This document shows positions 13,698 to 26,869 of a stretch of 49,701 bases of DNA, in pieces. The translations under genes were made by a program, and so were the position numbers. Under the pieces are notes generated by a model that was given only the letters and a program-made list of their open reading frames with translations, was not told the DNA's origin and made no database searches. This DNA comes from Candidatus Methanoperedens sp. (GTDB lineage Archaea; Halobacteriota; Methanosarcinia; Methanosarcinales; Methanoperedenaceae). The DNA lies in NCBI GenBank assembly GCA_012026795.1, contig VEPM01000032.1:1-49701 (forward strand), in the 5' to 3' direction. Position 1 is the stretch's first letter. Each line of letters opens with the position of its first letter.

Positions 13698-16643
13698 TTA
13701 GATTTTCTCCAGCCGGACATAATCAATATAGTATGTATCCCCTGCTTTTGCATACGGTGCAAGGAAGAACATTAATCGTCCATCGTTTACCGTAGCACTG
13801 AAGCCAGATGTGGTAAATTCAGTTGAGAATTCCTGCCAGCTCACGCTAAGATTGAAGGTCTGGTACAGACCGTAAACAGTATACGGTGAAATATGTTTAA
13901 TTAATGCTACTTTCAGGTCATGTCCTCTCGTCGAGTATGCTGCAAAACTTAACCGATACCGGGTTTTTGGTTCCAGTGATATACCTTTCTGGTATAGCTG
14001 GATGTTCGTACCACCAGTGTATAGAACAATGTTTGCAGATTTTGATCCTTCATATCCCGGGGGCGTTGCGGTGAATTTTCCGGTTCCGTTCGTATAGAAT
14101 AGCCATGGAGATGTTCCAGATTCAAAACCCGGATTCTGGATAAGATTAGACCCAGGAGGCTGATTCGTGAAGTTCAGGTTCATAACATTCTGACCCGCTA
14201 CGTTGACCAGTTTGAAAGTGGCGTTCGTAGGAATAAATCCTGTCCTGATTTCCTCAGTTACATTATAGATGCCATTTGCAAGGTTTGCGAATATGTAGAA
14301 CCCATTATTATCTGTCAAGTTACTGGCTATTATTTTGCCTGTTGTGACATTCTTTAGAGTGATATTCCAGCCCTGAATTCCTGCTTCGCCTGCATCCCAT
14401 TTTCCGTTGCCGTTGGTATCGTTGATCTTGTATCCTGAGATAATGCCTGCGATAAGGGATGGTGACGCAAGCGGAAGGAGGTCAGTATTGTTACTATCAA
14501 GTATATAAAGCGAGTTGCATATCCCATCTTTATCACTATCTGAACAGGTCTGGCTGAAGCCTGTGCCATTCGGGTTGGCCCAGAAGTTGCCGCCAAGATA
14601 TGAGCCACCGATGATGTTAGTGCCTTGGGTTTTTGTGGTGTTCCATGTGTTATTGGAGAATGGGGTACTGATATAACTGAGAAAATTGTTGGTGTTGTTG
14701 AAGTAATTATTGTAGATGATGTTGCTATTGGAAACGGAGAGGGATATTCCATCCATATTGTTTGAGACAATATTATTATATAATGTATTAGCATTGGAAT
14801 AATAAAAGGCGATGCCACTATATTTGTTTGAACCAGCGATATTGCCAGATAAGATATTGCTGTAACTGTTAACTGTGAGGGAAATTCCATGTTCTTTATT
14901 TGATTCTGCAATATTGTTAGATAGGGTATTATTATTACTAAAGTAATATAGATTGATTCCATCAAATATATTTAAGTTGGCAATATTGTTACTTATGTTA
15001 TTGTTTTTTGATTCCCAGAGAACAATCCCGAAACTGTTGTTTGTGACATTGTTGTTTAAGATGTTGGAATAATCACTTCCACGGTAAAGTTGGATACCTG
15101 CTATACCTCCACTTGCTAACCCAAAATTTGTCGCCCCCTCTGCTTTGAACCCACTGATATTCACATAATCAGCAGTGACCCTAAAGACAGGTTCGTCTGA
15201 ATTAAATGCATGAATAATGGTAGTATCTCTACTCTCTCCTTGAATTGTTAGTGATTTATCTACAACTATATTCTCAAAATAAGTGCCACTGTCTACATGT
15301 ATCTCATCGCCGAGGTTGGCATCGTTGATAGCGGGTTGGATTGAAGTATAATCTGTGCCCTTGTTGATATTGTGAACAGAGTTAGTAGTTGGAACAGATG
15401 TCACTATCCAATCCCATGTCTGCATGGCACTGCCTTTTGCATTGCTTGCAATTGCAGTTACATTCCATGTGCCCAACGCTGCGCTGGAGTTGGTATAGGA
15501 TGATGTGGTCACGCCAATCTCGTTTAATGCCTCCGTTCCGTTGATGAACCAGCTTACATTCACGGTCTGATTTGTTGTAATGCTGAATGTTCTTGATTCA
15601 CCCACATTATTTGTCACTGTTGAAGTCGTTGGAGAGAAGCTGCTTATATCAGGAACGCCAGCTGATGGCGCTGCATGCAATGCAAGCGGCAGGGAGTCGA
15701 TATTGTTACTATCAAGCGTATAAGGTGAATCACATATCCCATCTTTATCATTATCAGAACAGGTCTGGCTGAAGCCTGTGCCGTTCGGATAAGCCCAGAA
15801 GTTGCCGCCAAGGGTTGGACCACCGATGATGTTGGGGCTGAATTGCAGGGTGGTGTTCCATGAATTAATATTTGGGTCATAGAATTGAACATTGTTAGTA
15901 TTGTTAAAAATATTGTTGTATATCCTGTTGTTGCTGGATGAGTCAAGAGAGATACCGGGGCCGGTGTTCAAGCTGGCATTGTTCCCGATGAGCGTATTAT
16001 TGCTGGAATAGTCCAGATAGATGCCGTGGCCACTGTAGAGGCGGTAGCCGGTGTTCGAGCTGGCATTGTTCCCGATGAGCGTGTTGTTTCTCGATGAGTA
16101 CAGATAGATGCCGTTGCTGCCAGAGGTGCCGGTGTTCGAGTTGGCATTGTTCCTGATGAGCGTATTATTGCTTGATGAGTACAGATAGATGCCGTTGCCG
16201 CTGTAGCGGTAGTAGCCAGTGTTTGAGCTGGCATTGTTCCCGATGAGTGTGTTGTTGTTTGAAGTGACCGAGATCCCTATCGTTGCTCTGGTCGCTGTAA
16301 ATCCCTCAAGAATAATTTCATCCGCTGCAAGTGTGATCGCGCTTCCGCTTCCCCTTGCGTCCACTACAGGCCTACCGATCCCGCGCAGGATGAGCCGTTT
16401 GTTTACATTCACATTCCCGAAATATGTCCCGCTATAAACCAATATTGTGTCCCCGGCGCTCGCATTATCTATCGCATCCTGTATCCTCGTATAATTAGCG
16501 CCGCCGCTATCATCAACTGTCAGCGTTGCTGCACCTGCGCCGCCAGCCAGCAACAGGATTGTCATCATCGTTATTCCAACCGCGATTCTGAGGGCATGCC
16601 CTCCACAAGATTTATTTGCAAACATATTTTCCACCTTATCCAT
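13698..16643 (-). CDS. NosD-like parallel beta-helix surface protein
   Basis: 981 residues from the ATG at 16643. The frame opens 12 bp earlier, but GGTGAT, a Shine-Dalgarno, overlaps those codons and spaces correctly to 16643. A signal peptide ends near AGAATLTV. Two blocks of right-handed beta-helix (CASH/NosD) repeats follow: NNTLIGNNASSNTG-type coils (about 90-260) and ISNNIANLN/LSNNIAESN-type coils (about 430-680). Each block closes with a near-copy of a segment reading FWA.PNGTGFSQTCSD.DKDGIC. An SdrD_B-like domain (GYKINDTNGNGKWDAGEAGI) and a jelly-roll carbohydrate-binding-like domain (LIQNPGFESGTSPW to DYVRLEKI) complete it. Ca-binding-like Asp/Asn motifs are visible. It probably acts outside the cell on, or binds, polysaccharide. 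Transcribed from the 16714-16790 element. Confidence 0.85.
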   Translation of the reverse strand: MDKVENMFANKSCGGHALRIAVGITMMTILLLAGGAGAATLTVDDSGGANYTRIQDAIDNASAGDTILVYSGTYFGNVNVNKRLILRGIGRPVVDARGSGSAITLAADEIILEGFTATRATIGISVTSNNNTLIGNNASSNTGYYRYSGNGIYLYSSSNNTLIRNNANSNTGTSGSNGIYLYSSRNNTLIGNNASSNTGYRLYSGHGIYLDYSSNNTLIGNNASLNTGPGISLDSSSNNRIYNNIFNNTNNVQFYDPNINSWNTTLQFSPNIIGGPTLGGNFWAYPNGTGFSQTCSDNDKDGICDSPYTLDSNNIDSLPLALHAAPSAGVPDISSFSPTTSTVTNNVGESRTFSITTNQTVNVSWFINGTEALNEIGVTTSSYTNSSAALGTWNVTAIASNAKGSAMQTWDWIVTSVPTTNSVHNINKGTDYTSIQPAINDANLGDEIHVDSGTYFENIVVDKSLTIQGESRDTTIIHAFNSDEPVFRVTADYVNISGFKAEGATNFGLASGGIAGIQLYRGSDYSNILNNNVTNNSFGIVLWESKNNNISNNIANLNIFDGINLYYFSNNNTLSNNIAESNKEHGISLTVNSYSNILSGNIAGSNKYSGIAFYYSNANTLYNNIVSNNMDGISLSVSNSNIIYNNYFNNTNNFLSYISTPFSNNTWNTTKTQGTNIIGGSYLGGNFWANPNGTGFSQTCSDSDKDGICNSLYILDSNNTDLLPLASPSLIAGIISGYKINDTNGNGKWDAGEAGIQGWNITLKNVTTGKIIASNLTDNNGFYIFANLANGIYNVTEEIRTGFIPTNATFKLVNVAGQNVMNLNFTNQPPGSNLIQNPGFESGTSPWLFYTNGTGKFTATPPGYEGSKSANIVLYTGGTNIQLYQKGISLEPKTRYRLSFAAYSTRGHDLKVALIKHISPYTVYGLYQTFNLSVSWQEFSTEFTTSGFSATVNDGRLMFFLAPYAKAGDTYYIDYVRLEKI

Positions 16644-16713
16644 AATATCACCCATACCTACTTCTATTAGATAGAATTTTACAGTAGGTTATTTGCATAT
16701 GATAATTAGTAGT

Positions 16714-16790
16714 TTATAACATCTGTTATCCGAAAACCGGAACAAATGGATTTTTGTTACGGAAATGGCGTAACAAAGCTGTTTTTAATT
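16714..16790 (-). promoter_or_regulatory. Promoter element A: TATA box plus two dyads, shared with 20700-20776
   Basis: This 77-bp block matches 20700-20776 at 67 of 77 positions without gaps. On the minus strand it ends in a TATA-like GTTATAA (16714-16720), 70-75 bp before the beta-helix gene. Just upstream of the TATA is a dyad of TGTT..CCG and CGGAACA. Further upstream is a perfect 8-bp inverted repeat, TTGTTACG (16754-16761) and CGTAACAA (16769-16776), around a 7-nt spacer. This layout suits a regulator binding just upstream of the TATA/BRE. Confidence 0.65.
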
Positions 16791-16930
16791 TGAGATTCGG
16801 ATTTACAAAACACAGATTTATCTATCCATGGATTTCCGATGCTACCATAAAGAATACAATTCCAAGATATTTTTGAGTTCCATTTTGCCCCTTTGAGCAA
16901 GGAGGAAATATTCTATCATCAATATTGAAT

Positions 16931-17551
16931 CTATCCTTCCCATCCCTGTTCTAAACCTAATATTTGATGATGCAGATCTTTCGTAGTTGCTTCACTCTCT
17001 GGCTCATATTTTCTTATATTGGGCTTGGAATATGCTCCAATAAGTGGGATTGAATTTTTATTTTCGTAAATATAATCTCCATCAACACCAATTACCTCGC
17101 ATAGCCTTTTTGCTGATTCTTTAGCGGTTTCAGATGTTCCAGCATTCCAAATTGTTTTAGAATCTCCGCTGATCATGATTAATTTTATTGTATAATAAGT
17201 TGTTCCCTCACCGTCATTCGATTCTTCAACATTGACATTCTTTATTTCTGAAAATTTTATTATCTTAGCCTCTTTCCATTTGATTTTCTTGTTAGAAACT
17301 GTCAATTTCTCCAAGATAATACTTTTTATTCCTCTGTCAAAGGTAAACTTCTCAGCCGATTTAAATGTAAAATAAAGTATAAAAAAATAGAAAAGAACAA
17401 AGAAAATGGCAGTACCAGTTGTAGGAGACATCCACATTATAAATAATAACCATATGATAGATATATATGATATCCCATTGAAAGACTGATCTTCGTGCAG
17501 AATTTCTTCAGTTTCTTTTTCATCTCTTATTATTATTTTATTTACTATCAT
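16931..17551 (-). CDS. Membrane protein with PH-like/YcxB-type cytosolic domain
   Basis: 206 residues. Two closely spaced membrane helices (about 28-47 and 49-66) form a hairpin. A domain of about 100 residues follows, starting FTFDRGIKSIILEKLTV, with alternating strands (WKEAKIIKFSEIKNVNVEE, YYTIKLIMISGDSKTIWNAG) and a helix ESAKRLCEVIGV. This resembles the PH-like fold of DUF304/YcxB-type bacterial and archaeal membrane proteins. SD AAAGGAAG is 5 nt before the ATG. It follows the SPFH gene by 45 bp and may be in its transcript. Function unknown. Confidence 0.6.
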   Translation of the reverse strand: MIVNKIIIRDEKETEEILHEDQSFNGISYISIIWLLFIMWMSPTTGTAIFFVLFYFFILYFTFKSAEKFTFDRGIKSIILEKLTVSNKKIKWKEAKIIKFSEIKNVNVEESNDGEGTTYYTIKLIMISGDSKTIWNAGTSETAKESAKRLCEVIGVDGDYIYENKNSIPLIGAYSKPNIRKYEPESEATTKDLHHQILGLEQGWEG

Positions 17552-17596
17552 ATTCTTCCTTTAATTGATGATGATTTTTCTCCTGGTTATTTCATT

Positions 17597-19477
17597 TTAC
17601 TTCATTTCTTTCTCTATCTTTTCTTTAGATCTATCAGCCAGCATAGTCGCCATCCATGTGTTGAATAAATTTCCTCCCTGTGCATCAGCGGTAACAAGAA
17701 AATCCGGAACGATCTTTATCTGTCCTGTTGAGATTTCATTGATGACTTTAATAAGCGCTAACTTATCAGGACCAATGACTTTAGCCTGTGCCTCATATGC
17801 ATCAGCAAGACCGGTTCCAGTCTCACGCTGCTTATATGCTTCACCATCTGCTTCATACTTGGTGGAATCCCGTACACCTTCTGCTCTCCTGCGTGCGGCA
17901 TCTGCCTTATCTTTCTCGATCTCAATTGATAACTTGGCATCGATTACATCTTTCTGTTTTGCAGCCCGGGAAGTTTTCTCCTGGAGCGCGATATTTTCTT
18001 CCTGGGCTTTTGCCTGCTCCTGGAACTGCTCCTGTTGCTGAATCGCGATCTCCTTATCGGTCTGTGTCTTAAGCAACGTCGGATCAACGTCAATGTAGGA
18101 TATCAATAAGTTCTGTGCTTCAACGTGATATCTTTCAAACTCTTCCCGGGCTTTCTCAAGCGCCTCTTGCTGGAGATTGGTACGCATCTGGATAAATTCT
18201 ATCGCTTTCTTTTCCCCGGCCTTATTCCTGAATGAACTGTCTATCAATGGATGCACGATCTGTTCAATGAGATTGGCTACTGAGCCGAATCTTGCGATTA
18301 TGAATGATGCGTGCTGGGGCCTGACCCTGATGATCATTCTTACATCTGCTTCGAGCTTGAAGCCGTCTTTTGACGTTAAAGTTAATTGGCTGAATTTAAA
18401 AAATTCCGTGGCTTTTTCTGAAAGGACCTCTTCCTGCGGCGGCCTCCGGGTTCTGGAGGAGGCCGTTGTCTCCAAATTCGAGACTGTCTTATGCTGCGCC
18501 CGGATATCCGTGCTTGCCGCCCAATCGATAGTAACAGCGCTCGTCGGCACGAAATATGGGGTGAAAGCAAGAAAGTTCAGGTTATATTTACCTGGCGCAA
18601 CAGGTTCTCTCCATATCCCGCGCTGGTTTTTGTCAGTAGTCAGAACAACCTCGTCTTTTTCGTGGATCTCCTGTCTTAAATTTAACTTTTTATCCATTTC
18701 AGGAGGAGTTTCTGGTTCCTTTGCCAGTTCCAGGCCGATATTGGATCGCAGGACAGCCACATATCCGGGAGGTACTTCTGCAACTTCGTATTGTTTTACC
18801 TCAAATAAATCGGGATTAATATAATATTCACCAGGCTGTAATGTATCGAGCTGCGGTCCCCTGTATCCCCCACTGTTTATAAAGGCCTGGCCATCCTGGA
18901 AAAACCTGTGGGAATCGCTTTCTTGCCTGGGAGCAATTATATATTCGGGAGATAGCGGTTTACCATCCATAGCCACCACAACACCGATCTTTTCTTCATT
19001 GATCTTTGTTATCTCTTTCCTGCTTACGATAAATGCCCTCGTATTTATTCGATAAACACCGGGGCGCAGAAGTGCTATTTGAGGACCTTTCTTACCATTA
19101 TTATCAAGGAAGGCTCTTGCATCCTGGAACTGGTTACACTCAACAGCATCACCAAGCAACCTGCCGGTAGGGATTGGTTCACCATCGACAGATTCTACTG
19201 TCCCGATCTCGGTTTCTTTAATAATAGTTACCTGTTCCTTTTCAACGTTCCATATTATCGGATTAAACCAGTAGAGGCCAGGCATCAGTGTATCTGCCTG
19301 GATACCGATTTCACCATGCCTGGCAATTACCTGTCCCTGCGGCATTTTAGCTCCGAATATTTTCCTGGTAGTTATACCGACTTCATATCTTGCAACATAT
19401 ACCAGTCCACTTAACAAAAATATTAAAAGTATTATTCCTGAAAATGCCATGATAAACTGTGTTATTGATGCTAACAT
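17597..19477 (-). CDS. Membrane-anchored repeat plus SPFH/band-7 protein
   Basis: 626 residues from ATG 19477. A frame opens 21 bp earlier, but GGTTGGTGA then sits inside the coding region, where it would be the Shine-Dalgarno for 19477. One membrane helix (numbering from the upstream ATG, about 11-36) is followed by four copies of a module with core PGxYxxN: PGLYWFNP (73), PGVYRINT (146), PGEYYINP (222) and PGKYNLNF (302). Each is followed by a strand ending in E-V/I-T/A. The SPFH domain lies about 320-470 (ending EAQNLLISYIDVDPTLLKTQ). A long Gln/Glu/Ala-rich coiled coil (470-575) and a short tail follow. SPFH proteins build large rings or microdomains in membranes. The repeat plus SPFH plus helix order recalls major vault protein, but no homology is claimed. 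Confidence 0.82.
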   Translation of the reverse strand: MLASITQFIMAFSGIILLIFLLSGLVYVARYEVGITTRKIFGAKMPQGQVIARHGEIGIQADTLMPGLYWFNPIIWNVEKEQVTIIKETEIGTVESVDGEPIPTGRLLGDAVECNQFQDARAFLDNNGKKGPQIALLRPGVYRINTRAFIVSRKEITKINEEKIGVVVAMDGKPLSPEYIIAPRQESDSHRFFQDGQAFINSGGYRGPQLDTLQPGEYYINPDLFEVKQYEVAEVPPGYVAVLRSNIGLELAKEPETPPEMDKKLNLRQEIHEKDEVVLTTDKNQRGIWREPVAPGKYNLNFLAFTPYFVPTSAVTIDWAASTDIRAQHKTVSNLETTASSRTRRPPQEEVLSEKATEFFKFSQLTLTSKDGFKLEADVRMIIRVRPQHASFIIARFGSVANLIEQIVHPLIDSSFRNKAGEKKAIEFIQMRTNLQQEALEKAREEFERYHVEAQNLLISYIDVDPTLLKTQTDKEIAIQQQEQFQEQAKAQEENIALQEKTSRAAKQKDVIDAKLSIEIEKDKADAARRRAEGVRDSTKYEADGEAYKQRETGTGLADAYEAQAKVIGPDKLALIKVINEISTGQIKIVPDFLVTADAQGGNLFNTWMATMLADRSKEKIEKEMK

Positions 19478-19514
19478 TTTTTCACCAACCTTTTTCATTT
19501 AAAAACAGGAGGTA

Positions 19515-19536
19515 GAGGAGAAATTTATTTCTCCTC
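19515..19536 (-). terminator. Hairpin between the secreted-repeat and SPFH genes
   Basis: GAGGAGAAAT, loop TT, ATTTCTCCTC: a perfect 10-bp stem about 30 bp beyond the stop of the 19566-20486 gene on the minus strand. A T-run (GTTTTTAAATG) follows after about 10 nt. It is likely a terminator or an mRNA 3-prime stabilising hairpin. Confidence 0.55.
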
Positions 19537-19565
19537 CTTTATGTATGGGCTAAGCTTATTTTTCA

Positions 19566-20486
19566 CTATAGGATCATGTCGTTGTTAGTTATAGTACAGG
19601 TCTTAATTTCACCGCCTGTTATGTAACCACTGCAATCACCTGAGTATGAATCAGAATAATCCCATCTGGAATATTCTCCTACATAATAGTAGCCCTCATA
19701 GACTGTTACATTAGTGCCCGGCTCATCATTACCGGGGAACGATTGCCATTCGTCAGATGATACATACATCGTGAAATCGGATGGTATAGCAGTGCCACCG
19801 TTGTCGTTGATCACTTTTTTGATAACTGTTATTTGAGCCTTCGGTCTGTCGTCGTTGGTTATAGTGCAGGTTTTGGTTTCGCCCAAGTTAATTTGACCGT
19901 TGCACTCTGGTGAATATGACGAGATATAATCTTGGTTCCAGTCTTCGTACACGCTATAGTATCCCTGACCAATTTTTATATCGGTACCAGTTTCAGAACC
20001 TGAGAATGACCACAATGAAGGGTTGTTACCGTATATTGACATTGTGAAGTTAGATGCATTTGCCGTGCCTCCGTTATCATTAATTACATGTTTGATGACT
20101 TTTAAATGCGGAGCTATATCATCATTGGTTATTACACACGTTTTAGCTTCGTTATTATTTATGCGTCCCGAGCAACCCGGTGAATATGATACATTATAGC
20201 CTTTTACCGCAAGTTCAGCTACTTTATATTCACTATTTTTCATAGTAACAGTTGTTCCGGTCTCTGAACCACTGAAGATAGCGGGTGATGGATCTTTGGC
20301 TGTAACGGTTGCTGAAAAATCAGATGCTTTCATTGATCCGCCGTCATCATTGATTACGTTTATGAAAACTACCAGCGTTGGTTGTTTATCTGAGGCTGCA
20401 TAAACTTGGAAAACGTTGCCCATAAGCAATATAGTTATTGCAGCTATGGACAGCAGCACAAGTTTTGTTTTGTTTCTAACAATCAT
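19566..20486 (-). CDS. Secreted protein of three prealbumin-like repeats
   Basis: 306 residues. Signal peptide 1-31 (LVLLSIAAITILLMGNVFQVYA). Three homologous ~90-residue repeats begin near 37, 128 and 219. Each has the plan VxKxVINDNGGT...SDFT...GSETGT.V...GYY.V.E...YxxSYSxxCSGxI..GExKTCTITNDD. This is the prealbumin/transthyretin-like fold of SpaA-type or DUF11-like surface proteins. Two Cys per repeat suggest one disulfide each. SD AAAGGAGAT is 6 nt before the ATG. The gene has a leader of about 190 nt from promoter element B. No C-terminal anchor is visible, so it may be free or associated with the S-layer. Function unknown. Confidence 0.8.
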   Translation of the reverse strand: MIVRNKTKLVLLSIAAITILLMGNVFQVYAASDKQPTLVVFINVINDDGGSMKASDFSATVTAKDPSPAIFSGSETGTTVTMKNSEYKVAELAVKGYNVSYSPGCSGRINNNEAKTCVITNDDIAPHLKVIKHVINDNGGTANASNFTMSIYGNNPSLWSFSGSETGTDIKIGQGYYSVYEDWNQDYISSYSPECNGQINLGETKTCTITNDDRPKAQITVIKKVINDNGGTAIPSDFTMYVSSDEWQSFPGNDEPGTNVTVYEGYYYVGEYSRWDYSDSYSGDCSGYITGGEIKTCTITNNDMIL

Positions 20487-20608
20487 ATTTTATCTCCTTT
20501 ATTTTTCAGGTTATTTTCGGTAATATATCGAAGGTCATTGCACTTTTACCAGTGCTCGTTGATGTATTCGCCACACTACTATCATATCAGCTTTCGATTG
20601 CAGGATGA

Positions 20609-20639
20609 AATCGAGATATTTTTATTATGTATCTCGATT
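20609..20639 (-). promoter_or_regulatory. Leader hairpin in the 5-prime UTR of the secreted-repeat gene
   Basis: AATCGAGATA and TATCTCGATT form a perfect 10-bp stem with an 11-nt loop. It lies between element B and the start codon at 20486, within the predicted leader. It could be an RNA switch, a stabiliser or a DNA operator. Confidence 0.45.
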
Positions 20640-20699
20640 GTTTGCTGCCAACGATACCTGACAGCATAGTAGATTATTTGTATACAATTATTACAATTC

Positions 20700-20776
20700 T
20701 TATAATATTTGTTACCCGAAAACCGGAACAGATGGGATTTTGTTACGGAAGTGGCGTAACAAATCTGTTTCTAACT
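20700..20776 (-). promoter_or_regulatory. Promoter element B, near-copy of element A
   Basis: 67 of 77 bases match element A without gaps. On the minus strand it ends in ATTATAA (20700-20706), serving the secreted-repeat gene. The 8-bp inverted repeat (20740-20747 and 20755-20762) is perfectly kept, and the three core segments around both dyads are unchanged. On the other side it lies about 80 bp from the radical SAM fusion gene, so a bound regulator could affect both directions. Confidence 0.65.
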
Positions 20777-20854
20777 TTTATTTAATAAATATGAAGAATG
20801 TATTTATATGTGATCCAATTAATAACAATGTTCAAGAGAGAATATAATAATATC

Positions 20855-22981
20855 ATGGAAAAAAGATGTTATTTTATGAATGAATTTAATGTAGATCCTG
20901 ATGAAATTAAATTTTATTTAGAATCAAAACCTGAGAACATTGATGTGGTACTTGAGAAAGCGGAAAAATTGCAGGGATTGGATTTCGGAGATATTGCCAC
21001 ACTTCTTCATATTAATCCCGATCCCAATAATAAAGATTTTAACACCCTACTAGAAACTGCAAAGCGTATCAGAAGCGATATTCTTGGAAATGAAATAAAC
21101 CTGGCTGTTCCTCTTTACGTTACAAATTATTGTATGAATAAATGTCCTTATTGTGCATTCAATCGTAATAATTATAGTAACGGCAGAACCCGTTTGACTT
21201 TTGGCCAATATTGTAAAGAAATTGAATATTTGATAGCGAAGAATTTTAAGACAATAGAGCTGGTTTTTTCAGACGACCCGGAAATTGGCATACAGGAAAT
21301 GACGAAATATATAGAGCATCTGAGAAATAAACTTGGACAGGGAGAAAATGGGATGATTGGTTTGAACTCTTCTCCATTATCACTGGAAGACTATAGATCG
21401 TTGAAAAGTAGGGGTTTAGATATCGTACTTTCATGGCAGGAAACATATCACAGGAAAACTTACGACGAGCTTCATAAAGAATGTGTTTCTAAAAAAGATT
21501 TCCAGTATAGATTAGGAACCCAGGAAAGAATATATAATAGTGGAATAAGAAATGCCGGGATTGGTGTACTGCTGGGCTTGTATGATTTTAATTTCGAAAT
21601 CATGGCATTAATCCGGCATGGATTGTATTTAAGGGAAAAATTTGACCGTTTTCCCATAGTTGGGATACCTCGTTTGAAAAAAGCCAACAGAATGTTATTC
21701 CATCCAGAGCAGGAGTATCAAGTTTCTGATAACCAGCTGAAACTTATCACTGCAATCATCAGGCTGGCATTACCATACTCGCATATTTTCATAAGTACGA
21801 GGGAAAATAAAGATTTGATAATAGATTTATTAAAGGCAGGTGGAGGATCCATCTCGGCGGCTCTTTGCAGCGTTGCTCCAGGTTATATCACCAATAAGAA
21901 ATCCGGATTGAATCAATTTGAGGTTTCTTCATATGAGCCTGCTGAAATGGAACAGAGTTTAGAAAAAAATAATTTTATTCCTACATATAATCCTCCATTT
22001 TTTGACAATGTTGATCTAAAATCATTGATTCCTGAGATATTTAAGGGAAATGCAGCTTTATTTATAGGTTCTGGATTAACCGGTGCTGTAACAGACTGCA
22101 ACTCTTCTATCTTTAAAAAAATAGCAGATATTTTAACTATTAAAAATATTATTAACATAAATTGCGATAGCATTCTGGAAGATGCAATTAAACAGCGTAG
22201 GGGCAGAATCAATCTAATTCAAGAAGATAAGGATATGCTGGAAATGGAATCAGATACAACAATTTACAAAATGCCCAGTTCCATTGATCCGCTTATGTTC
22301 AATAAACTCGAGGAGCTTTTTTTTACAAGAGCTATTTTATTTGTTGGATATGATATAAATAATGATAAAATTAATACCATTATTAAAAAAACCAAGCAAC
22401 GTTTAGAGAATAGGGTTCGGTTCTATGTTATTATAAGGAATCCAGCAGAAGTTGAAATTCGTTTTTGGAAGAGCAATAATGCTAAGATATTCAACGTAGA
22501 TATCGAACACTTTTTCGAAATCCTGGCTGAAAAACTCAGAACAGATCCCATAATAAACAGATATACCTTTAATGCACTGTGGGAAGTAAGAAAACAGATG
22601 GAGATGAACTCAGTAAGTCTTGCCGCAAGGTATAGGGGAACACATGACATAGAGGCTCTGGAGTCTATTTTAGAAAAATTTGAAGTAGCTCTTAAGGATG
22701 AGATAACAAGAGAAACGGGTGTATTCTGGGGTTATGATTTTGATTTCCACGTAGGGATATCTTCAGCAAGCGGAAATAGTTCATTTTATGATATTTGCAG
22801 GTTGCTGTATAGATCATTATCTACATTAAGCAGGCAAGCTCAATCCATGGAGACTTTAAAACAACATAGAGAAATACTGGATGCCATCAGGAATAAAGAT
22901 GAAGATAGGGCAGTTAAACACATGGAAGATCATATTGATTATGTAAGGGAAATCTGGGAGCGGGGATTAAATCCCAGATAA
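20855..22981 (+). CDS. Radical SAM (ThiH/HydG-like) - SIR2-like - FCD fusion protein
   Basis: 708 residues from ATG 20855; ATG 20876 is equally possible, and the frame opens at 20798. Numbering here is from 20798. Domain 1, about 65-400: ThiH/HydG/BioB-type radical SAM with the cluster motif C112-x3-C116-x2-C119 in YCMNKCPYCAFNR. The barrel follows (IELVFSDDPEIG, VLLGLYDFNFEIMALIRHGLYL, ALCSVAPGY). Domain 2, about 415-580: SIR2-like Rossmann segment with ALFIGSGLTGAV, ININCDSILEDAI and ILFVGYDINNDKINTII. The usual K-x-H-G-S motif reads KMPSSID, without the catalytic His. Domain 3, about 585-722: FCD ligand domain of GntR/FadR regulators with the metal set D647, H651, H690, H712. No HTH is present. 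Radical chemistry plus nucleotide and ligand sensing in one chain is inferred; the substrate is unknown. Convergent with the AAA-HEAT gene. Confidence 0.78.
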   Translation: MEKRCYFMNEFNVDPDEIKFYLESKPENIDVVLEKAEKLQGLDFGDIATLLHINPDPNNKDFNTLLETAKRIRSDILGNEINLAVPLYVTNYCMNKCPYCAFNRNNYSNGRTRLTFGQYCKEIEYLIAKNFKTIELVFSDDPEIGIQEMTKYIEHLRNKLGQGENGMIGLNSSPLSLEDYRSLKSRGLDIVLSWQETYHRKTYDELHKECVSKKDFQYRLGTQERIYNSGIRNAGIGVLLGLYDFNFEIMALIRHGLYLREKFDRFPIVGIPRLKKANRMLFHPEQEYQVSDNQLKLITAIIRLALPYSHIFISTRENKDLIIDLLKAGGGSISAALCSVAPGYITNKKSGLNQFEVSSYEPAEMEQSLEKNNFIPTYNPPFFDNVDLKSLIPEIFKGNAALFIGSGLTGAVTDCNSSIFKKIADILTIKNIININCDSILEDAIKQRRGRINLIQEDKDMLEMESDTTIYKMPSSIDPLMFNKLEELFFTRAILFVGYDINNDKINTIIKKTKQRLENRVRFYVIIRNPAEVEIRFWKSNNAKIFNVDIEHFFEILAEKLRTDPIINRYTFNALWEVRKQMEMNSVSLAARYRGTHDIEALESILEKFEVALKDEITRETGVFWGYDFDFHVGISSASGNSSFYDICRLLYRSLSTLSRQAQSMETLKQHREILDAIRNKDEDRAVKHMEDHIDYVREIWERGLNPR

Positions 22982-23010: not shown

Positions 23011-25506
23011 TTATATATTTTTATTCTCATCACATTTTGCGATGATTTGATTACCAATCCAGATATGTTGGTTAATAATTGGCAACCCCTTCCACAACAC
23101 CCCTGTAGCACCAGGCGCTTTCTTCTCTACTTCATCCAGCATCTCTGCGGCGCGCTCGCAGTACTTTCTGTATGCGTTGAGGTCTCTTTTTAAATGATTG
23201 AAATCCTTTTCTTTTGAATTCTGCACTTCCTTCAGCGCATTTCCGAGATTTTTCACGGCTTCAAGGAGTTTTTCTTTGCTATAAGAATTTTCAACTGCAC
23301 TTTTTGCCTCTTCAAAATATTTTTGGACTTCAGCTTTAGCTTCTTCTTTCTTAAAAGTCAGCATATAGAAAGAGCGATAAAATGGAAGACAAAATCTTGC
23401 TGGTTGCGAATTTGTTTCTTCCCTTGATGATTTTTCAAAAAATTGCAGAGCTCGCTCTAATTCCTTTCTGAAATTCTCTTCATCTTTTGATTCTGTTGCC
23501 CTGAAAACATACGCTCTTCCGAGAGAATGGTTGGCATATGCTCGAACAATGCTTTTTTCGTCTTTTGTGAGGGTAAGAAGGTTTTCTGCTATCTGGTTCT
23601 TATCAGTAACATACGGAAAGACAGAACCAAGAGCTTCTGCTGCTACGCTCCGCACATCGGTATCCTTATCATTTATTAGGTCAAGAAGGGCTTCTGTTGC
23701 CTGATCCTTATCTGTGACATGGGGAAAGGCAGAACCAAGTGCATACGCCGCACCAATTAACACAAATCTATCATCATGTTTTATCAGAACAAGCAGTTCG
23801 TTCCATGCCCGAACTTTATCAGTAACCTGGGAAAAAGCCGAACCAATGGCTTCAACTGCATTCCTTTGCACAAAGATGTCCTTATCCTTTGCCATGGTTA
23901 GCAATGCTTCTGTTGCCCGGTCTTTATTAGTAAGGTGGAAAAAGGAGGAACCAATGGCTTTAGCTGCACTTCTCCGCACAAAAATATCCGTATCCTTTGC
24001 CATGGTTAGCAGCGCTTCTGTTGCCCGGTCTTTATTAGTAAGGTGGAAAAAGGAGGAACCAATGGCCTCTGCGATAACACTTCTCACTTTCCAGTTTTTA
24101 TCCTCTGTAAGGTTAAGCAGATCATTTGTTGCTCGATCTCTATCAGTAAAATACTTAAAGGCGGAACCAATGGCTTCTGCGATGACACTTCTCACCTTCC
24201 AGTCTTCATCCTTTATAAGATCAAGCAGGTCATTTATTGCCCGCTCTCTATCAGTGAGGTAAATAAAGGCGGAACCAATGGCTTTTGCCGCCTCCCTTCG
24301 TATTTCCCATTTTTCATCTTTTGCAAGTTTTAGCAGGTCATTTGTTGCCCGCTCTCTATCAGTGAAAACTTTAAAATTTTTCCCCATTTCATATGCCGCT
24401 TCTTTTCTCTCAGATACTTTTCCGCTCTGTGCTTTTCTGTAAATTTCGGGTTCATTAATTACGCATCTACGTTCATTCTTTGCATATCCATCACAAAAAT
24501 CTGAGCCATTTTTTCTTGCCCAATCCTCATTTTCTATTACATCTCTTGCCCTTACTGTGCCTTTTATCTTAGCAAAGGATTTTCTGAAATCTGATTTAGT
24601 AAGCGGCCTTATTTCAAGCGAGTATTTTTTAATATCATCAAGAGGTAAGTTTCCGATTTTATCCCAGTCATTTAGTTCTCGCACCATATTATTGATAGCT
24701 TCCTTGCACAGAGTCGCAATATCGCGGCCTGCAAATAATTTCGAGACACAAGTTTCCGCTATCTTCTGCATATCTGCGTCTAATTCCATACCTTTTTTCA
24801 GGGTATTCAGTTTAATCATTTCCATAACAGCCTGCTCATCAGGCAGAGGGACGTAAATCCGCATCTCGAACCGGCTGAGCACTGCAATATCAAGGTCCCA
24901 TGGGGTATTAGTGGCAGCTATTGTAAGAACATTCTGGCTTGATTTCTTATTCTGTAATCCCTGCATTTCAACAAGCAGCGTTGACAATACTCTTCGCGAA
25001 GCTTCAGATTTATCGTTACGGATACCCCCAATGGAATCAAATTCATCCAGGAAGATGATAGATGGAGCCTTTTTTCGAGCGACATTATATAAAGCAGATA
25101 TGATCTTCGAAGACTCGCCATAATATTTAGACAATATATCTCCGGTTTTTACCTTGAAAAAAGTGGCTTTCAAAGTTCCAGCAGTTGCCGCAGCAAGCAG
25201 GGTCTTACCTGTTCCGGGAGGCCCAAAAAGCAGAATGCTGTTATATGGCTCTATTGCATCAGGTTTATTTTCAATTATACTAATTAAATTAGACTCATTG
25301 ATGGTATTCCTGGCATTATCAAGACCTGCAATATCCTCCCAGGTTACATTTGTTGATGTTATCAAGCTATTAATATATTTCTCAAAATTCCCTTCCCCTT
25401 CTTTTACCATAGTATCATAATTTTCCGCTTCATGAGCATTCTGTGTAATTTTTTTTTGTTCTGTGCACTCTCTCTTTATCGCTTCTAATTCATCAGATAG
25501 GCGCAT
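23011..25506 (-). CDS. AAA+ ATPase with HEAT-like repeat array
   Basis: 831 residues. An N-terminal coiled coil (1-45) precedes an AAA+ module (about 53-330) of the Vps4/proteasome-ATPase type: WEDIAGLDNARN, Walker A GPPGTGKT (95-102), Walker B IIFLDEFD (150-157), sensor AATNTPWDLD, arginine finger SRFE. From about 370 to 660 there are roughly eight HEAT-like (PBS-lyase type) repeats with a 36-residue period: DRATxxLLxLxKDxxWxVRxxAAxAIGSxFxxxT. A helical, charged C-terminal region of about 170 residues follows. The HEAT array probably grips a protein partner that the AAA+ ring remodels. There is no protease or nuclease domain. It faces the radical SAM fusion gene across a 29-bp AT-rich gap. 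Confidence 0.88.
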   Translation of the reverse strand: MRLSDELEAIKRECTEQKKITQNAHEAENYDTMVKEGEGNFEKYINSLITSTNVTWEDIAGLDNARNTINESNLISIIENKPDAIEPYNSILLFGPPGTGKTLLAAATAGTLKATFFKVKTGDILSKYYGESSKIISALYNVARKKAPSIIFLDEFDSIGGIRNDKSEASRRVLSTLLVEMQGLQNKKSSQNVLTIAATNTPWDLDIAVLSRFEMRIYVPLPDEQAVMEMIKLNTLKKGMELDADMQKIAETCVSKLFAGRDIATLCKEAINNMVRELNDWDKIGNLPLDDIKKYSLEIRPLTKSDFRKSFAKIKGTVRARDVIENEDWARKNGSDFCDGYAKNERRCVINEPEIYRKAQSGKVSERKEAAYEMGKNFKVFTDRERATNDLLKLAKDEKWEIRREAAKAIGSAFIYLTDRERAINDLLDLIKDEDWKVRSVIAEAIGSAFKYFTDRDRATNDLLNLTEDKNWKVRSVIAEAIGSSFFHLTNKDRATEALLTMAKDTDIFVRRSAAKAIGSSFFHLTNKDRATEALLTMAKDKDIFVQRNAVEAIGSAFSQVTDKVRAWNELLVLIKHDDRFVLIGAAYALGSAFPHVTDKDQATEALLDLINDKDTDVRSVAAEALGSVFPYVTDKNQIAENLLTLTKDEKSIVRAYANHSLGRAYVFRATESKDEENFRKELERALQFFEKSSREETNSQPARFCLPFYRSFYMLTFKKEEAKAEVQKYFEEAKSAVENSYSKEKLLEAVKNLGNALKEVQNSKEKDFNHLKRDLNAYRKYCERAAEMLDEVEKKAPGATGVLWKGLPIINQHIWIGNQIIAKCDENKNI
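23891..24066. repeat. Near-identical 108-bp tandem units inside the HEAT array
   Basis: The 68 bp from 23891 recur 108 bp further on (23999) with two differences, equal to one 36-residue repeat. Neighbouring repeats are far less alike, so this copy arose recently by tandem duplication or was homogenised. Confidence 0.85.
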
Positions 25507-25723
25507 TATTATCTCCGGTTATAATTAAAAAATTTAATCCAGTGACATATTAGAAAGAGACATAATACTTATATTTTTTGTTATAGATTTTTCGGGGGAA
25601 ATTTATAATGATAATCTTTTTGACGCTATTGTATTATAAGGACTTCCAAAACTCTTAACAGATAAAAATCACGCAATTTTCCAATAACTATTTATATTTA
25701 CTTATTTCACATAAAACCCAAGT

Positions 25724-26299
25724 ATGAACCCTGAATTGATCAATGGCTGGGAAAAGATCGTAGGACATGACAGAATGAAAATAATTTCAAGTAAATTTTT
25801 TGATAGCAGGCTTGATTTAGAGTTTCCAGATCTTCAAAAAGGCAGCTATGAATATAAAAAATTGAGCATAACTTCTGAACTTGAAAATAATGCAAATATG
25901 TTAATTGAATTTGAAAGAGAAGGTTTCTTAACTCATGATGAAGTTTCAAGAATGATTGAAGTATCAACCCAGAATATTATAAGTAATAATATGCCCGGTG
26001 CTCTTTTTGAGACTATCTCCATAATAATGGATGATGAAATATTGAAGAATATTAAGAATAAGTTGACCGAAATCGAAATAAAAGGTTTCTTGACCCACGA
26101 TGAAGTTACAGGAATTGTTAAAGTATTAGCCCGAAATATTACAGATAAGAGCTTGTCTGGTGCTCTTTTTAAGTATATTTGCATTATGCTGGACGATGAA
26201 GAATTTAAGGATCAAGAAGAGGAGCGGCTTGAAATGCTGGTCAAGTACATCAGGTGGTGTCTGGATAGTCTCAATATGAATGAAAAACAGTTGGAGTAG
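25724..26299 (+). CDS. Unknown protein with internal duplication
   Basis: 191 residues. A segment of about 63 residues occurs twice: EREGFLTHDEVSRMIEVS...MPGALFETISIIMDDE near 65-107, and EIKGFLTHDEVTGIVKVLA...LSGALFKYICIMLDDE near 128-170. Each copy is helical with a conserved GFLTHDEV motif. The EF-hand-like look of the motif does not extend to a DxDxDG loop, so calcium binding is not claimed. The C-terminus is charged. A TATA box (TTTATATT, 25691-25698) is about 30 nt before the ATG and there is no Shine-Dalgarno, so a leaderless mRNA is likely. Divergent from the AAA-HEAT gene. No family recognised. Confidence 0.65.
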   Translation: MNPELINGWEKIVGHDRMKIISSKFFDSRLDLEFPDLQKGSYEYKKLSITSELENNANMLIEFEREGFLTHDEVSRMIEVSTQNIISNNMPGALFETISIIMDDEILKNIKNKLTEIEIKGFLTHDEVTGIVKVLARNITDKSLSGALFKYICIMLDDEEFKDQEEERLEMLVKYIRWCLDSLNMNEKQLE

Positions 26300-26869
26300 T
26301 TATCTAAGAATCAATTTTATTTTGAAACTGCAATTGGCTTGATGTACTCTTTCAAACAGGTCAATATCTCCAAATCGTTTTACTATATTTTTGATCACGG
26401 GTTCGCAGGTGGTTTCACAATTTTTCTTCTCACATGACGTTCCTTTTATGTCCATATTGATCTTACGCCCTCCTCTGGTAATGATTGCATTATGATATAC
26501 TTTGAAATCAGCATCCAGGTAGTATTTTAAAATATACTCAATCCCATCCCCGAAATCCGTAATCGATTCAGGAGGAAATTTTCCTTTGGTAGAATCGAGC
26601 TTATCGCTGATGCTCAGTATTTCGCTCCCGAAAGGAGATGCCACATACATTGTGTGTTTCTCGCCAATAATAGCTTCCCTTTCAAACAAAATAGCCAGGC
26701 GGGAAGAAACGAGGTCTGTAACCGATTCTGAGACTTTTTCTTTGCGGATATTCAGACTCTCTGACAGCTCGATATTTCTATAGGATCTCTTGCACAGTTT
26801 TTCTAAAATTTCTAACCTGCATTTCCTGCTGAGTGTTTTAGAAAGATCCATAAAGGACTTAGTGGACAT
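26300..26869 (-). CDS. Winged-helix (ArsR-like) transcriptional regulator
   Basis: 189 residues. The N-terminal ~75 residues form a winged helix: LSRKCRLEILEKLCKRSYRNIELSESLNIRKEKVSESVTDLVSSRLAIL, then a wing with EKHTMYVASPFG. The C-terminal ~100 residues contain three or four cysteines (CEKKNCETTCEPVIKNI), a possible metal or redox site. Archaea use such two-domain regulators widely. Its stop abuts the stop of the plus-strand gene before it with no gap. Target genes unknown; the divergent gene at 26982 is one candidate. Confidence 0.72.
   Translation of the reverse strand: MSTKSFMDLSKTLSRKCRLEILEKLCKRSYRNIELSESLNIRKEKVSESVTDLVSSRLAILFEREAIIGEKHTMYVASPFGSEILSISDKLDSTKGKFPPESITDFGDGIEYILKYYLDADFKVYHNAIITRGGRKINMDIKGTSCEKKNCETTCEPVIKNIVKRFGDIDLFERVHQANCSFKIKLILR

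Follow-up and report, generated by a model that had tools for sequence, protein, structure and literature searches.

We analysed a 49,701-nucleotide stretch of DNA from Candidatus Methanoperedens sp. (assembly GCA_012026795.1, contig VEPM01000032.1, positions 1 to 49,701 of the forward strand; hereafter the window), in which a 77-bp promoter block with two palindromic operators occurs twice, each time upstream of a minus-strand gene for an exported protein. The two copies, A and B, and the genes behind them are arranged as follows.

16714..16790, minus strand: twin-operator promoter element, copy A, in front of the NosD/beta-helix gene, with 67/77 identity to copy B
16754..16776, minus strand: copy A operator 1, TTGTTACGCCATTTCCGTAACAA, 14/14 consensus positions
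16723..16745, minus strand: copy A operator 2, TTGTTCCGGTTTTCGGATAACAG, 11/14 consensus positions, 31 bp downstream of operator 1
16714..16719, minus strand: copy A TATA box (TTATAA), 57 bp from the operator 1 start
20700..20776, minus strand: twin-operator promoter element, copy B, in front of the genes for the SpaA_2, Band_7 and membrane proteins
20740..20762, minus strand: copy B operator 1, TTGTTACGCCACTTCCGTAACAA, 14/14 consensus positions
20709..20731, minus strand: copy B operator 2, CTGTTCCGGTTTTCGGGTAACAA, 12/14 consensus positions
20700..20705, minus strand: copy B TATA box, by its position in the 12-site alignment
13698..16655, minus strand: exported protein with NosD/beta-helix, SdrD_B and CBM_4_9 domains (Pfam), behind copy A
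19566..20486, minus strand: exported prealbumin-like (SpaA_2) protein (Pfam), first gene behind copy B
17597..19498, minus strand: SPFH/Band_7 protein (Pfam), second gene behind copy B, after a 68-bp gap
16931..17551, minus strand: 206-amino-acid hydrophobic, putative membrane protein, third gene behind copy B

An earlier note on this DNA had described the two blocks as an ungapped match at 67 of 77 bases, with their TATA ends pointing to minus-strand genes and with equal spacing from dyad to TATA; we confirmed all three points, and identity is at background on either flank in the ungapped register. The A/B pair was also recovered as a repeat family (D9), and a BLAST search with copy B against the 3.59-Mb genome returned copy A at E = 2e-21, the next match lying at E = 0.5. 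The TTGTTACG-N7-CGTAACAA dyad is present without mismatch in both copies, and the genome-wide search for it that the note had called for gave A and B alone at zero mismatches; allowing up to three mismatches, three occurrences were found in the window against 0.13 expected. Many copies outside promoters, the outcome named there as pointing to a miniature inverted-repeat transposable element (MITE), were not found: the 3.59 Mb hold two copies only, both at promoters, and a MITE-type repeat was rejected on copy number and position.

We compared these copies with an order-wide survey of 149 genomes and a genus set of 31 genomes, including isolate Mnv1 (G009), nzgw24 (G006), BE2012_43_12 (G040) and LC 1 (G007). 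The second dyad of the earlier note, TGTT..CCG/CGGAACA, is present in both A and B, but it is not a separate motif; it is a partly degenerate second copy of the first dyad, reading CTGTTCCGGTTTTCGGGTAACAA in B, TTGTTCCGGTTTTCGGATAACAG in A and, in perfect form, TTGTTACGGTTTCCGGGTAACAA in a homologous copy of Mnv1. The operator is thus a 23-bp palindrome, TTGTTAC-N9-GTAACAA, that occurs twice per block; in A and B the operator starts lie 31 bp apart, 57 bp separate the first of these starts from that of the TATA box, and operator 2 ends 3 bp before TTATAA. In a gapped alignment, the A/B similarity runs about 35 bp beyond that TATA box (TTATATACAAATAATCTACTGT) and includes a second TATA-like run about 18 bp downstream, which we judged less likely to be the true TATA box because the nzgw24, BE2012_43_12, 'ANME-2 cluster' and Ethanoperedens sites described below are without it and keep a TATA at 56–58 bp. 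By its sequence, the 77-base block is shown to be a real control element, namely a promoter module with two palindromic operators and a TATA box at a fixed distance.

The module precedes ten more genes, spread over four other Methanoperedens genomes, one 'ANME-2 cluster' archaeon, Candidatus Ethanoperedens and genome G036; outside these archaeal genera it is rare. In 12 of 12 aligned sites the operators are 30–32 bp apart and the TATA box lies 56–58 bp after the operator 1 start, with a distance from TATA to the start codon of about 30–75 bp at most sites. As 30–32 bp corresponds to about three helical turns, both operators lie on the same face of the DNA, and this fixed spacing is what protein dimers on one DNA face would need. 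Homologous copies are found in LC 1 and in Mnv1, the latter with two complete copies and one cut by a contig end. On that contig of Mnv1 (C43, L148) the sequence ends inside the further copy, next to the regulator and partner genes introduced below; Mnv1 therefore has at least three copies.

A first profile, built from the five closest copies, led to the members in BE2012_43_12 and nzgw24, and refined profiles added a second site in each. The order-wide profile search gave 12 sites at E <= 6.7e-7, all else being no better than about 1e-3; 11 of the 12 are sites from which the profile was built, and the G036 site is the sole one outside that set. We dropped a match in G008 (E 4e-4 to 9e-4) located where a transposase-like gene ends, and, as noise, recurrent weak matches (E about 1e-3) over the start of one conserved gene in another genus. 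Single-operator pattern searches of the 31 genomes gave no excess over a reversed control, and single dyads are accordingly uninformative; the twin architecture alone is informative.

The operator is conserved at orthologous genes (copy B of the window and copy D of Mnv1 before SpaA_2 orthologues, the nzgw24/BE2012_43_12 pairs, and the 'ANME-2 cluster'/Ethanoperedens pair). The left flank of copy D has homologues in the corresponding flank of copy E in LC 1 and in the C43 contig end of Mnv1, and promoter segments of 100–200 bp therefore move between genes by local duplication. This flank homology would also suit the view that the similarity reflects recent promoter-segment duplication or a small mobile repeat with no shared regulation, which we consider most improbable: the element is found at promoter positions only, as a rule in two copies per genome with no spread elsewhere, and its half-sites and spacing persist in genera where the remaining sequence is unrecognisable.

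We then considered the genes behind the element. The SpaA_2 and SPFH/Band_7 genes, with the 68-bp gap between them, probably form one operon. The earlier description of two surface-protein genes is too narrow, SpaA_2 being the first gene of a likely operon with the SPFH/Band_7 and membrane proteins; elsewhere, the genes preceded by the element include Vps4-like, SPFH and ESCRT-III-like genes (ESCRT, endosomal sorting complex required for transport). Copy D of Mnv1 is followed by SpaA_2 and then Band_7, as at copy B, and copy C by a HEAT-protein gene region. Copy E of LC 1 precedes a Vps4-like AAA-HEAT gene, whose counterpart in the window is the following.

23011..25506, minus strand: Vps4/CdvC-like AAA ATPase with HEAT repeats (Pfam); element upstream in LC 1

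A degenerate third copy before this gene was sought at 25506-25724 and was not found in the window, though LC 1 has one. The window protein matches AAA (1e-38) and Vps4_C (3e-5) in Pfam, as do the L169 and L176 proteins, and no N-terminal MIT domain was detected in it; a weak MIT match occurs in L146 (E 3e-4, below the cut-off), a gene not shown to carry the element. In LC 1, a relative of the coiled-coil gene described next, with an internal deletion, precedes the AAA-HEAT gene; this remnant (L057:1760-1840, minus strand), just upstream of it, keeps both ends and lacks the middle.

BE2012_43_12 and nzgw24 each have one site followed by genes for a helical protein, a coiled-coil protein and a zinc-ribbon SPFH protein, and another followed by genes for a coiled-coil ESCRT-III-like protein and a Vps4-like AAA ATPase fused to a cyclic di-AMP cyclase domain. 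The fusions, with a diadenylate cyclase (DAC) domain, lie at L169:932-2725 and L170:2708-4507 (DAC Pfam E 2e-16 for the L169 protein). Coiled-coil and Vps4-like AAA genes also stand behind the element in the 'ANME-2 cluster' genome and in Ethanoperedens, and in G036 the element (L208:2631-2693) is followed by an AbiEi/AbiEii-type gene pair. The coiled-coil protein of the nzgw24, BE2012_43_12, 'ANME-2 cluster' and Ethanoperedens sites had no Pfam match; Vipp1 and CHMP were among its top Foldseek rows, but at E > 0.4, and fold comparison gave Z 6–7, not above unrelated helical hairpins. Its gene is always beside a Vps4-like AAA gene.

In the regions inspected for the SpaA_2 paralogues of G000 (C28), G018 and G043 we saw no element, which is therefore not an obligate part of the SpaA_2 gene. 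Within the SpaA_2 leader (window 20490-20670) there is a conserved region that at its most complete consists of GATGCA...TGCATC and, after it, a hairpin GCACT...AGTGC. This region is also present in these element-less paralogues and is possibly a structured 5' untranslated region; an Rfam search of the leader RNA matched no family. An inverted repeat, ATCGAGATA...TATCTCGAT, lies within the leader behind copy B at 20596-20640 and is largely kept in Mnv1.

On the other side of copy B lies a divergent gene that the earlier note had offered as a further target.

20798..22981, plus strand: radical SAM - SIR2 - FCD fusion gene, opposite side of copy B, unsupported as a target

The encoded protein combines radical SAM (ThiH/HydG-like), SIR2-like and FCD domains and is present in only 3 of the 31 genus genomes. 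Its first ATG is 36 bp from operator 1 in the window and the palindromes score with the profile in reverse orientation as well, as would be expected if the dyad were read both ways and drove this gene too; however, in Mnv1 about 250 bp separate the element from the gene's upstream region, whose conservation does not depend on the element, and in G022 the gene is present but no element was detected. We thus find the gene unsupported as a target, and bidirectional use of the dyad quite improbable.

The candidate for the protein that binds the element is encoded 6 kb away.

26300..26869, minus strand: candidate regulator, a 189-amino-acid ArsR-type winged-helix protein with a cysteine-bearing C-terminal domain, proposed on co-occurrence, fold and the element at the start of its orthologues
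25724..26299, plus strand: 191-amino-acid partner gene, tail-to-tail with the regulator gene

The predicted fold is a winged helix (H15-27, H32-39, H43-55, E59-65, E71-77), with ArsR/PadR/MarR factors and Pyrococcus Phr as best structural matches; against HTH_5 (Pfam, cut-off 22) the window protein scores 17.2 bits, below the cut-off, and the 'ANME-2 cluster' orthologue 24.4, above it. Within the genus, the protein was found in G000, Mnv1 (split by a frameshift), LC 1, nzgw24, BE2012_43_12 and G011, the first five of which are exactly the genomes with the element. Among the 149 genomes of the order, seven have both, one the element only, two the protein only and 139 neither (hypergeometric 1e-9). 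On an FtsZ tree of the genus the carriers are scattered among non-carriers, and element and protein change together in 5/5 independent pairs, a number with which p cannot go below 0.06. A scan of 84,980 species revealed only seven relatives of the regulator, two of them outside the genus, and none was found on viral contigs. These two, in the 'ANME-2 cluster' archaeon and Ethanoperedens, are at about 50% protein identity. In both genomes an element lies in the 100-bp spacer that divides the regulator gene from the divergent coiled-coil/Vps4-like operon, and its operator 1 directly adjoins the regulator ATG; Ethanoperedens also has a single near-perfect operator upstream of its orthologue of the 191-amino-acid partner. 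In BE2012_43_12 one element is on another contig than the regulator gene, and in nzgw24 the elements are 40 kb from it. The common regulator that the earlier note had proposed for the beta-helix and prealbumin-fold genes is strongly supported by this pattern: several genomes have the twin-operator architecture at their promoters, in front of different genes, and its distribution follows that of a single winged-helix protein. Judged from sequence, the 26300-26869 protein is the likely controller of the element.

The operator pair might instead be bound by another factor, with the winged-helix protein an ESCRT-associated subunit that merely shares the same clusters. Archaeal ESCRT loci often include winged-helix proteins thought to be ESCRT-II-like (PMC10936438), the regulator gene is beside a coiled-coil gene in nzgw24 and G011 and also beside a Vps4-like gene in nzgw24, and G036 has the element without the winged-helix protein. 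We nevertheless regard this assignment as unlikely: the family scores as an ArsR-type DNA-binding winged helix and its nearest folds are transcription factors, the element is exactly at the start codon of the winged-helix gene in two distant genera, and elements on other contigs or 40 kb off still co-occur with the protein.

We consider it probable that dimers of the 26300-26869 protein bind the twin operators and activate the NosD gene and the SpaA_2-SPFH operon together. One ArsR-type winged-helix dimer would occupy each operator, and the two dimers, side by side just upstream of the transcription factor B (TFB) recognition element (BRE) and TATA box, would recruit TATA-binding protein (TBP) and TFB, switching on both transcription units jointly and, in relatives, operons of Vps4-like, ESCRT-III-like and SPFH genes. 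Where operator 1 touches the regulator start codon, as in the 'ANME-2 cluster' archaeon and Ethanoperedens, the bound factor would also repress its own gene. Given the conserved cysteines in its C-terminal domain, the protein may respond to a redox or metal signal, and envelope stress is a plausible theme of the regulon. We infer the sign as well as the regulator assignment, and favour activation over repression because the operators are upstream of the TATA box, a position that usually accompanies activation in archaea (TrmBL1, PMC4706686; Tar/TK0271, PMC6737238).

Repression by covering of the BRE is the main rival, with the same operators and the same regulator: a dimer on operator 2 would block TFB and TBP, operator 1 would act cooperatively, and a stress signal would release the promoter. 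ArsR-family proteins and Phr are classically repressors. Operator 2 ends 3 bp before TTATAA, at the expected place of the BRE, and the abutment of operator 1 on the regulator start codon in two genera suits autorepression; yet archaeal repressor sites mostly overlap or follow the TATA box (21/28 TrmBL1 sites are directly downstream of BRE/TATA, PMC4706686), whereas both operators here are wholly upstream of it in constant helical phase. We therefore regard repression as rather unlikely.

Several observations weigh against joint activation by this protein. In the first profile search the BE2012_43_12 and nzgw24 sites had E values no better than about 2e-3, with a chance match at 4e-4 alongside; we accepted them for their architecture and context, and the 'ANME-2 cluster' and Ethanoperedens sites for their place at the regulator gene. 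Operator 2 is degenerate at several sites, and it would overlap the BRE, which also fits a repressor. G036 has the element and no detected regulator, and G011, a genome 87% complete, has the regulator and no detected element. In Methanoperedens no operator is seen at the promoter of the regulator gene itself, and the protein model is of modest confidence (mean predicted local distance difference test score 64). Finally, as regulator and targets are often clustered, island co-inheritance could yield part of the co-occurrence.

Activation from tandem upstream operators can be set beside known archaeal systems. Ptr2 of Methanocaldococcus jannaschii reportedly acts at promoters with tandem palindromes too; it is said to be an Lrp/AsnC-family protein with a different operator, whereas the candidate here is ArsR-like. 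The likeness is that a protein bound upstream of BRE/TATA recruits TBP (cited in PMC6737238). Tar/TK0271 of Thermococcus kodakarensis likewise combines a palindrome upstream of BRE/TATA, several promoters and one activator, but differs in its operator (TGGACA-N8-TGTCCA), its aromatic amino acid genes and its protein family, and the available portion of the source reports no fixed-spacing twin operator (PMC6737238). The TrmBL1/Thermococcales glycolytic motif is a palindrome whose place relative to TATA predicts activation or repression; it differs in being TATCAC-N5-GTGATA at sugar genes, with many sites per genome, whereas the element here usually occurs twice per genome in fixed phase (PMC4706686). 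Phr, the heat-shock regulator of Pyrococcus furiosus (PDB 2p4w), shares the ArsR-type winged helix with a C-terminal domain. The N-terminal domain alone aligns with the candidate (Z 10.7, 83 residues, root-mean-square deviation 3.8), at about 20% identity. Phr targets reportedly include a AAA ATPase, and Phr is said to block recruitment of RNA polymerase from an operator that differs in sequence and position from the element here.

Transcriptional control of ESCRT-type machinery by a transcription factor is known in an archaeon from aCcr1 and cdvA of the Sulfolobales; aCcr1 differs in being a ribbon-helix-helix repressor of another phylum that serves cell-cycle control (PMC12796447). The archaeal ESCRT loci of Makarova et al. 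2024 (Meth_adaptin clade) similarly unite Vps4-like ATPase, ESCRT-III-like and SPFH-zinc-ribbon genes, but in the available portion of that source winged-helix proteins are discussed as structural parts and no operator or regulator is reported (PMC10936438). Among the papers covered by our full-text search, none mentioned ESCRT, Vps4 and Methanoperedens jointly.

How genes are regulated in these archaea, most of them uncultivated, has hardly been explored, and the present result offers a defined operator, a specific candidate regulator and a short list of target genes that are testable in vitro with archaeal transcription components. It is quite possible, if short of probable, that a dedicated factor and a twin-operator code coordinate ESCRT-III/Vps4-like and SPFH membrane remodelling with secreted surface proteins, as an envelope-stress regulon with a logic like that of the bacterial phage shock protein (Psp) response in anaerobic methane- and ethane-oxidising archaea. 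The finding would supply a control circuit for ESCRT/SPFH-like clusters outside the Sulfolobales, and would place two otherwise anonymous exported proteins in a functional context.

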